This document shows positions 48,867-50,907 of a DNA stretch of 64,000 nucleotides, one piece after another (positions within the stretch are counted from its first letter, which is position 1; every line of letters begins with the position of its first letter). The position numbers and the translations under genes are program-made. The notes under the pieces are model-generated. The model saw nothing but the letters and a program-made list of their open reading frames with translations, had not been told where the DNA came from and ran no database searches. Source of the DNA: Litorilituus sp. Lineage in GTDB: Bacteria > Pseudomonadota > Gammaproteobacteria > Enterobacterales > Alteromonadaceae. Where the stretch lies: contig JASMAS010000070.1 of NCBI GenBank assembly GCA_030754235.1, positions 1-64,000 on the forward strand. Reading direction: 5' to 3'.

Positions 48867-50660
48867 ATGAAATTATTATTTTCGTTTGTCATTCTTCTTT
48901 TCTTGACAAGCTGCAGTCAAACTAACCAAACAATCAATACCATACAGTTACCAACTAGAAGTGATCAACAATTACATCAACTCATTCATACTTACCAACA
49001 GTTTTATCAACAAGCTAGTCCATTTAACCATCCTGAACGAGGGGGTAACAATGGTCAACTGCCTGATTTATCTCCTGAAAACTTAGCTCAGCAAAACAAA
49101 AAGCTGCGTGCTATTTTTCAAGCATTATTGGCAATTAATAGTGAAGCGATCAATAAAGAAAACCAAATAAACAGAGCTGTCTTAGTCTATTCAATCAAAA
49201 ATCAACTCGACAGTTATGATAATAAAGAGCATTACATGCCCTTAACTGCTGAGTCAGGTTTTCATGTATGGATCGCAAATATTATTGACCAAGTCAACTT
49301 TAAAAGCACTCAAGACTACCAAGATTACCTAGCAAAATTAGCAGCCCTACCTAAGTATTTCAAACAGCAAATTTTTTGGATGAATATGGGTGTTCAATCA
49401 GGGATAACTCAGCCTAAAGTGGTATTAGATGGGTTTGAACAGTCTATTAAGGCATACATTGTAGACGATATAACCCAAAGTGATTATTACCGACCTTTTC
49501 AAAAGATGTCGATTCATGTTGACGCAAGTACTCAGCACCAATTAAAACAAAAAGCCAAAGCGATTATTAGTGAAAAAGTAATTCCTGCCTACCAAAACTA
49601 TTACCAGTATATGGTTAATGACTATAAGCCAAATGCTCGAGAAAATATTGCGGCTATCTCATTACCTAACGGAAAAAATTACTACCTAAATAGAGTACAG
49701 CATTATACAACATTAAACCTCACCGCTAATGAAGTGCATCAACAAGGTTTAGCTGAAGTTAAGCGTATTCGAACAGCAATGGATGATATTATCAAACAAG
49801 TCAATTTTGATGGCAACTTTGCAGAGTTTGTTGAGTTTTTACGTACCGATGAACAGTTTTACGCAAAAACAGCAACAACACTCCTAAAAGAAGCCTCATT
49901 TATTGCCAAAAAAATGGATGCAAAACTACCTGCACTATTTAAAACCTTACCCAGAACGCCTTATGGTGTAATACCCGTTCCAGCAAACATTGCGCCTAAA
50001 TACACGACAGGTCGCTATTCCGGCCCTACCCGTGATGATCAACCAGGCAACTACTGGGTTAATACTTATCGTCTAGATCGCCGACCATTATACGTACTGA
50101 CAGCATTAACATTACATGAAGCTGTGCCCGGTCATCATTTACAGACCTCTATCGCTAAAGAAATGCAAAATGTGCCTAAATTTAGAAATCGCACCTATAT
50201 TTCAGCCTTTGGTGAAGGTTGGGGGTTATATTCTGAATATTTAGGTATTGAAGCTGGCATGTATACCAACCCTTATCATGATTTTGGTCGTTTAACTTAT
50301 GAAATGTGGCGAGCTTGTCGATTAGTGCTAGATACAGGAATACACACCAAAGGCTGGTCACGCCAAAAGGCTATTAAATACCTAGCTAATAATACCGCCT
50401 TATCTTTACATAATGTTCAAACCGAGATTGATCGCTATATTTCATGGCCTGGACAAGCTCTATCATACAAAATAGGTGAGCTGACCATAAAACGATTACG
50501 GCACAAAGCACAAAATATTTTGGTTGATGATTTTGATTTACGAGATTTCCATGATCAAATTTTAAGAAATGGCTCTATGCCGCTGACCATGCTTGAAAAA
50601 GTGATAGATAATTATATTGTCGATAAACAAGCAAGCATCAAAGAACTTAATAAAGTGTAG
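48867..50660 (+). CDS. DUF885 family lipoprotein (putative metallopeptidase)
   Basis: A 597-residue protein with a lipoprotein signal (lipobox LTSC, Cys at about 16) and the DUF885 zinc-peptidase-like core: LTLHEAVPGHHLQTSIA and EGWGLYSEYLG, with YEMWRACRLVLDTGIH. By family it is probably a zinc-dependent carboxypeptidase-like enzyme anchored in the envelope; its substrate is unknown. Its 3' end is converged upon by a c-di-GMP-I riboswitch transcript from the minus strand. Confidence 0.88.
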   Translation: MKLLFSFVILLFLTSCSQTNQTINTIQLPTRSDQQLHQLIHTYQQFYQQASPFNHPERGGNNGQLPDLSPENLAQQNKKLRAIFQALLAINSEAINKENQINRAVLVYSIKNQLDSYDNKEHYMPLTAESGFHVWIANIIDQVNFKSTQDYQDYLAKLAALPKYFKQQIFWMNMGVQSGITQPKVVLDGFEQSIKAYIVDDITQSDYYRPFQKMSIHVDASTQHQLKQKAKAIISEKVIPAYQNYYQYMVNDYKPNARENIAAISLPNGKNYYLNRVQHYTTLNLTANEVHQQGLAEVKRIRTAMDDIIKQVNFDGNFAEFVEFLRTDEQFYAKTATTLLKEASFIAKKMDAKLPALFKTLPRTPYGVIPVPANIAPKYTTGRYSGPTRDDQPGNYWVNTYRLDRRPLYVLTALTLHEAVPGHHLQTSIAKEMQNVPKFRNRTYISAFGEGWGLYSEYLGIEAGMYTNPYHDFGRLTYEMWRACRLVLDTGIHTKGWSRQKAIKYLANNTALSLHNVQTEIDRYISWPGQALSYKIGELTIKRLRHKAQNILVDDFDLRDFHDQILRNGSMPLTMLEKVIDNYIVDKQASIKELNKV

Positions 50661-50714
50661 ACAATGCCATTAGTCAATGGCTAAGGAAAGTTAATACATA
50701 AGGTAAGGAAGCCA

Positions 50715-50728
50715 CGCAAAGTTAACCG
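50715..50728 (-). promoter_or_regulatory. segment complementary to the riboswitch core
   Basis: The minus-strand RNA here reads CGGUUAACUUUGCG and can pair with CGCAAAGUUACCG in the aptamer core (plus-strand 50816-50828), 13 pairs with one bulge. The pairing would exclude the aptamer fold and may be its expression platform. No T tract follows it. Confidence 0.5.
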
Positions 50729-50779
50729 AAGAAACCAACAGTAAGCTGTTCAAGATAAATGAGCCCCCACTACATTTAA

Positions 50780-50863
50780 CTTGGCAGTCCCGCCGTCATA
50801 GGTTTCCCGTTAGACCGGTAACTTTGCGTCTCTAACTTTCGCTAGATTTGCCCTTGTTGAGCC
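50780..50863 (-). promoter_or_regulatory. cyclic di-GMP-I (GEMM-I) riboswitch aptamer
   Basis: The minus strand shows the GEMM-I order: ACAAGGGCAAA, the P2 hairpin TCTAGC-GAAA-GTTAGA (50831-50846), the invariant GACGCAAAG (50822-50830), ACCGGTCTAAC, then ACCTATGAC and GGCGGGACTGCC. The GAAA loop of P2 and the TCTAA/TATGA pair in P3 fit the tetraloop and receptor that dock in this class. It should bind c-di-GMP. Unlike known examples there is no gene in the 120 bases behind it. Confidence 0.88.
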
Positions 50864-50879
50864 TTTACAGCTCGAGTTC

Positions 50880-50907
50880 ATTATAATTGATGATTGGCCA
50901 TTGTAAA
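50880..50907 (-). promoter_or_regulatory. sigma-70 promoter for the riboswitch transcript
   Basis: On the minus strand TTTACA (50902-50907) and a perfect TATAAT (50880-50885) are separated by 16 bases. Transcription would start near 50873, about 10 bases before the aptamer. Confidence 0.75.

Follow-up and report, generated by a model that had tools for sequence, protein, structure and literature searches.

The locus examined here raises the question of what a riboswitch does where no gene follows it. Riboswitches are nearly all interpreted as switches before genes. In the window, by which we mean the whole stretch of 64,000 nt that was analysed, a c-di-GMP-I (GEMM-I) aptamer lies on the minus strand, and a preliminary description had noted its landmarks, a promoter just upstream and no gene behind it. 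Two products had been suggested: a small RNA controlled by c-di-GMP, and an antisense RNA running into the convergent DUF885 gene. We considered whether the conserved unit around the aptamer, the neighbouring genes and the predicted folds speak for a leader, an antisense RNA or an RNA gene in its own right.

The aptamer and its promoter

The covariance-model check was run and bore out the GEMM-I landmarks. The minus-strand element at 50862-50780 matches Rfam RF01051 over model positions 1-87 of 87 with 73.9 bits (E 1.3e-12), well over the gathering score of 35, and is, judged by sequence and covariance, a c-di-GMP-I aptamer with c-di-GMP as the predicted ligand. The promoter hexamers are likewise present as described, at 50907-50902 and 50885-50880, and the arrangement TTTACA, 16-nt spacer, TATAAT gives 11 of 12 consensus matches. 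Taken alone this site carries little weight, since a scan of 1001 bases gave 3 promoter-like sites, with 2.9 expected from shuffles. The promoter is credible because it is conserved across the 91 copies of the unit that were compared. TTTACA/TATAAT is matched at 12 of 12 positions in 78 of them and at 11 or more in 88, and the spacer measures 16 nt in 85. From the start of the -10 hexamer to the aptamer core the distance is 53-60 nt in 90 of the 91 copies, counting those for which a distance is listed.

The unit comprises the following features:
50902 to 50907, minus strand: -35 hexamer TTTACA, recognised by sequence and kept in genus and family
50880 to 50885, minus strand: -10 hexamer TATAAT, recognised by sequence; transcription would start near 50873
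50859 to 50873, minus strand: 5' hairpin GAGCY...RGCUC at the putative RNA start, from the fold and from pair changes that keep it
50780 to 50862, minus strand: c-di-GMP-I (GEMM-I) aptamer, match to Rfam RF01051
50757 to 50777, minus strand: hairpin H1 with the loop UAGUGGGGGCU, from loop conservation and covariation
50714 to 50741, minus strand: putative anti-aptamer strand, ending in UAACUUUGCGU and complementary to ACGCAAAGUUA of the aptamer, from the complement and predicted pairing
50705 to 50713, minus strand: GGCUUCCUU, start of a G-poor pyrimidine tract, from the folds and the end of conservation

In the genus alignment the 5' hairpin shows GC, GU and AU at one pair and CG and UA at another.

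Extent and distribution of the conserved unit

Conservation reaches from the promoter as far as about 50700, which predicts an RNA of about 175 nt. The span 50780-50863 of the preliminary description thus placed the aptamer correctly; it took in only about half of the unit and missed the 3' module that extends to about 50700. Among the aligned genus copies the mean conservation is 0.66-0.97 from the -35 hexamer to 50703, 0.48 at 50702-50688 and 0.28-0.38 over the next 60 bases. Because conservation stops there, we place the RNA 3' end within about 15 nt of the element at 50705-50713, probably near 50700 and short of the DUF885 stop at 50660.

A 186-base probe matches 38 of the 39 genomes of the genus, and the 3' module is present in all 38 aligned genus copies. 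The remaining genome, G017 (97% complete, 3.0 Mb), is the sole one of the 39 without any GEMM-I match. With a 361-base probe 40 of 61 genomes were matched; three of these lie outside the genus and match by the aptamer alone, and G017 is matched through 39 bases that lie beyond the RNA. When the entire RNA was modelled from sequence only, some match was found in 204 of 395 family genomes, with near end-to-end matches, among those listed, in at least 100 of the 395 genomes and at least 19 of 52 genera. The same model gives a match in 127 of 394 genomes of an order-wide sample. Outside the family the best among the matches listed cover the aptamer alone, and some weak ones (about 32-45 bits) extend further. 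Twenty loci of weaker matches were read, and TAGTGGGGGC was absent from all of them. The 91 copies compared consist of 38 of the genus, the window included, and 53 others, namely 52 of at least 70 full-length matches outside the genus (18 were left out) and G234, which matches in two pieces.

A spread to unrelated phyla was considered and rejected. A pattern scan had returned 52 contigs, among them L114 (Omnitrophota) and L152 (Euryarchaeota). When model R2 was applied to 11 loci, ten of these contigs plus L100 from G017, eight matched; L114, L152 and L100 did not, so L114 and L152 were taken as chance matches.

Some variants were observed along the way. In the eleven copies of genus g76 (L243-L245, L248-L252, L257, L258 and L260) the P2 of the aptamer has grown into long variable hairpins and the 3' module is retained. 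Genus g43 carries an orphan GEMM-I at the same syntenic place, before a convergent DUF885 gene (L272 in G422 and L265 in G306). Its 3' part is different, also with GGGGGC and, by eye, with a GGCUGCUUCG strand as a possible pairing partner of the aptamer; it is possibly an older form of the RNA. The genome of the window itself has a second GEMM-I, L269 (G000:C56:16241-16337). A DUF3718 ORF begins about 16 nt behind it, and a patatin-like gene comes after that, an ordinary cis arrangement.

Neighbouring genes

The statement that no gene lies behind the aptamer held up: the 120 nt that separate the aptamer from the stop of the convergent DUF885 gene (50660) contain no minus-strand ORF of at least 40 aa. 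Consequently, the aptamer in the window does not belong to the 5' UTR of any gene on its own strand. The DUF885 assignment rests on a Pfam E value of 1e-169. Beyond this gene, the next on the minus strand is a GGDEF gene (48708-47737), which starts about 2 kb on.

Neighbours in the 91 copies were assigned by a longest-ORF rule, and the next-gene counts took ORFs that were 150 aa or longer or belonged to clusters of three or more. Pfam was searched with eight proteins; the orn, RsgA, DUF523 and helicase labels were assigned by reading. The next downstream gene is a convergent DUF885 gene in 66 copies (one of them a fragment) and a same-strand GGDEF gene in 21, the rest being convergent orn-like (two), same-strand helicase-like (one) and convergent DUF523-like (one). 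By orientation the next listed gene is convergent in 69 copies, with a gap of at most 439 nt, and same-strand in 22. Where a same-strand GGDEF gene comes next, it begins 108-417 nt after the predicted RNA end; this leader-like layout was counted against a stand-alone RNA.

Other GEMM-I loci served as a control. An ORF on the same strand, 70 aa or longer and with its start no more than 460 nt away, was found at 18 of 20 of them (at G042 the ORF begins within the aptamer) versus 21 of the 91 copies. The two exceptions are G422, the orphan at the same syntenic place mentioned above, and G686, which is ambiguous because the ORFs overlap.

On the other side, a divergent TPR gene is the nearest upstream neighbour in 75 of the 91 copies, and fragments of it were recognised by reading in two more. 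Pfam gives TPR alone for this protein; a GGDEF-like tail was seen by reading. Between 50907 and 51453 in the window no convincing trace of the TPR gene was found, and the RNA is still present. More than 500 bases separate the promoter in the window from the next ORF that is common to relatives.

These changing neighbours bear directly on the proposed antisense RNA. The DUF885 stop lies well within 500 nt of the aptamer, the distance used to recognise antisense-acting riboswitches, and yet the same convergent gene is not retained with the RNA, which persists in 25 of the 91 copies with another next gene. As the neighbours change and the RNA stays, it is not explained in general by antisense control of DUF885 or by control of any single downstream gene, and DUF885 was rejected as the general target; the predicted end near 50700 also speaks against this part of the preliminary description. 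Read-through into DUF885 may still occur in one of two states of the RNA. The other suggestion, a small c-di-GMP-controlled RNA, gains support, because promoter, aptamer and 3' module are kept together and the next gene varies.

The 3' module

The first element of the module is the hairpin H1. Its loop UAGUGGGGGCU is exact in 82 of the 91 copies, and its five-pair stem is formed in 94.9% of the cells (51 distinct rows). Changes on both sides were found at four of the five pairs compared with a shuffled mean of 1.2, as in the stem AAAUG/CAUUU of the window versus AGAUG/CUUCU in 13 relatives. The covariation score is 0.201 against 0.139 for shuffled alignments, none of 500 shuffles reaching 0.201, and falls to 0.077 or less when the stem is slid; the number of pair types was not above shuffles (171 of 500). 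By these comparisons of aligned copies, H1 covaries.

The second element is the putative anti-aptamer strand. In the window it offers an 11-nt mismatch-free complement to the aptamer versus 7 and 6 nt in two flanking controls, a search with weak points, as the upstream control of G028 reached 10 nt and the best downstream complement of G036 (7 nt) is not the anti-aptamer. In the predicted ligand-free fold the aptamer core pairs with UUUGC at a probability above 0.5 in 89 of the 91 copies, and the aptamer 5' AAGGG pairs with the terminal pyrimidines in 74; UUUGC was located in all 91 copies partly by construction, its locator favouring this motif. The element GGCUUCCUU has two pairing options, with the aptamer 5' AAGG(G) in the ligand-free fold or with GGGGGC of the H1 loop.

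Comparative support for the alternative helices is more moderate than for H1. In the genus alignment 93.5% of the cells pair in the named alternative fold, H1 included, and 29 cells are changed on both sides compared with 11.1 after shuffling (0 of 500), with far lower values when the fold is slid. Two of five measures were not clearly above shuffling (pairs with a double change, 31 of 500; pair types, 491 of 500). Of the 29 cells, 15 lie in H1 and 14 at one anti-aptamer pair, the only one there with both-side changes, and the core 8-bp anti-aptamer helix is nearly invariant. Apart from one cell in the window alone, the double changes fall in the same 14 of 38 sequences and so represent few events.

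Between genera, swapped 3' modules pair worse with the aptamer. The true partners were equalled by 52 of 4000 permutations, by 114 of 4000 without the UUUGC block and by 16 of 4000 for the outer helix. The margin is small (-29.6 versus -28.1 kcal/mol), and only 53 of the 91 copies bind their own module more strongly than foreign modules on average. The anti-aptamer is not settled by a consensus fold of 76 sequences, in which UUUGC took the aptamer 5' AAGG as its partner instead. Taken together, the pairing data give moderate support to a strand able to invert the aptamer.

For the window, with the module complete, the inverted fold is predicted to lie 15-17 kcal/mol below the fold in which the aptamer is enforced. 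Switching would therefore have to be kinetic: the ligand could win only if it is bound before the module is made.

Proposed mode of action

That the RNA stands alone is well supported by the conserved unit and its changing neighbours. The fuller reading, which we favour with modest confidence, takes the locus as an RNA gene that stands alone, with a product of about 175 nt whose fold is set by c-di-GMP during transcription and which acts in trans. Its own near-consensus promoter would produce not an mRNA leader but an RNA consisting of the aptamer and a 3' module able to unfold it, and c-di-GMP would choose the fold while the RNA is being made. If ligand is caught before the 3' module emerges, the aptamer would stay intact and the module would fold on itself. 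If none is caught, the anti-aptamer strand would invade and the RNA would be locked in a long alternative hairpin capped by the G-rich loop UAGUGGGGGCU. Different surfaces would be exposed in the two forms, and through them the RNA could act in trans on an RNA or a protein partner. From its transcription and its 3' end to the binding of ligand, the choice of fold and the action in trans, we infer these steps. As the neighbours change, the product should matter by itself, and the fixed loop together with a two-way 3' module suggests more than a sponge.

A stronger version is put forward tentatively, as we doubt it more than we believe it. The RNA could be a family-wide, trans-acting small RNA and function as a one-time recorder: during its synthesis every molecule would read the c-di-GMP level once, would then be trapped in the ligand-bound or the inverted form, and in the latter would show the fixed G-rich loop to a conserved partner. 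Complements of the H1 loop were searched in the genome, giving 36 sites at no more than one mismatch (the RNA's own included) versus 19 for the reversed pattern. Among the 30 sites with a fetched locus, no gene start was recognised at any; besides the RNA locus and an lpoA-like one, three of them (L310, L317 and L318) gave no ORF of 100 aa. One exact loop match outside the RNA locus was discarded as a coding stretch, presumably lpoA, beside an rsmI-like gene, and another match lies antisense inside an ORF.

Alternative explanations

Among the competing explanations a transcription-termination riboswitch survives best, although we regard it as unlikely. The 3' module would then be an expression platform: in the ligand-bound state GGGGGC:GCYYYY and the pyrimidine tract would stop transcription, and read-through without ligand would yield DUF885 antisense RNA, GGDEF mRNA or both. 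The GGDEF arm would close a c-di-GMP feedback loop, in an excludon-like layout where DUF885 intervenes. When the 3' module is folded alone, GGGGGC:GCYYYY indeed has a probability of 0.95 in the window, and yet it is favoured in 45 of the 91 copies, only half of them. Counted from the start of UUUGC, nucleotides 10-70 are poor in G (0.079, upstream control 0.118) and richer in C (0.245, control 0.153), as in Rho-dependent termination, whereas a scan of the minus strand at the window locus found no site resembling an intrinsic terminator. The gene order likewise points both ways. The first same-strand listed gene at any distance belongs to the GGDEF cluster c2 in 58 copies, being the immediate neighbour in the 21 noted above; in the other 33 it is RsgA-like (19), something else (3) or not present in the stretch (11), and no GGDEF-cluster member was seen in the 4 kb examined in the eleven copies of g76. 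Moreover, the convergent DUF885 gene comes next in most copies, and the GGDEF gene of the window starts about 2 kb away.

Second, the RNA could be a c-di-GMP sponge or reservoir, present in abundance and doing no more than bind the signal with its aptamer. The near-consensus promoter and the lack of a fixed downstream gene fit this explanation, and merRNA of Bdellovibrio, as presented in the accessible part of PMC3627812, is a precedent. A sponge, however, would need neither the conserved loop nor the anti-aptamer module, and we consider it improbable.

In general, c-di-GMP-I riboswitches usually sit before genes. A cis riboswitch of the ordinary kind, left without its gene or serving an overlooked small ORF, is nevertheless very improbable here even though 18 of 20 other GEMM-I copies precede a gene by the ORF rule: a relic would not be conserved with promoter and 3' module in at least 19 genera, and a small ORF was rejected because the longest frames starting in the RNA are short (median 35 aa, maximum 67 aa in the 91 copies), because the commonest start, the ATG of CCUAUGA (28 of 91), is gone where the RNA reads CCUACGA or CCUAAGA and in the window opens a frame that stops after 7 codons, and because the distance from loop to anti-aptamer changes by non-multiples of three.

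Comparison with known systems

Apart from the papers discussed below, none of those listed in a literature search describes this RNA or its 3' module in its title or in the abstract shown, the supplementary tables of PMC9943018 being outside the scope of the search. The RNA shares its full-length aptamer with the c-di-GMP-I cis riboswitches of RF01051. It differs from them in that the next listed gene is off-strand in 69 of the 91 copies and in having a 3' module that is kept whole as one conserved unit.

With the antisense-acting riboswitches surveyed in PMC9943018 it shares a convergent gene within 500 nt. According to the accessible part of that survey, c-di-GMP riboswitches are most prone to such a position, with 152 cases, and an uncharacterised gene of Colwellia sp. 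PAMC 21821 is named. This Colwellia case may be the very locus described here, so its position may already be tabulated in PMC9943018. Control of the convergent gene is what the accessible part of PMC9943018 infers, whereas here the next gene differs in 25 of the 91 copies and the RNA is kept. Antisense control of the nearest convergent gene can thus be the wrong reading of such loci.

Trans-acting riboswitch RNAs are exemplified by SreA/SreB and Rli55/EutX, which sense S-adenosylmethionine or cobalamin. They likewise join an aptamer and a separate effector region in one small RNA that acts away from its locus, an action that is predicted in the present case. SreA/SreB and Rli55/EutX have known partners; here the ligand is c-di-GMP by prediction. 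The accessible part of PMC7266159 mentions this kind of RNA.

Here many genera retain a c-di-GMP sensor in the form of an RNA gene, and comparison of the copies speaks for a second fold; the locus thus offers a concrete test case for c-di-GMP acting through a free small RNA. Another close likeness is to merRNA of Bdellovibrio bacteriovorus, an orphan c-di-GMP RNA proposed to be a reservoir (PMC3627812, accessible part). In both cases a c-di-GMP riboswitch lies within a non-coding RNA without a conserved downstream ORF. As described in the accessible part of PMC3627812, merRNA has 445 nt and is massively expressed in the attack phase, and its authors did not detect it beyond the Bdellovibrio lineage. 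That description sets apart the RNA reported here, with its predicted length of about 175 nt, its occurrence in another bacterial family and its conserved anti-aptamer module. Found in culturable Colwellia relatives, it would provide a second system besides merRNA, whose role, in the accessible part of PMC3627812, is only proposed.
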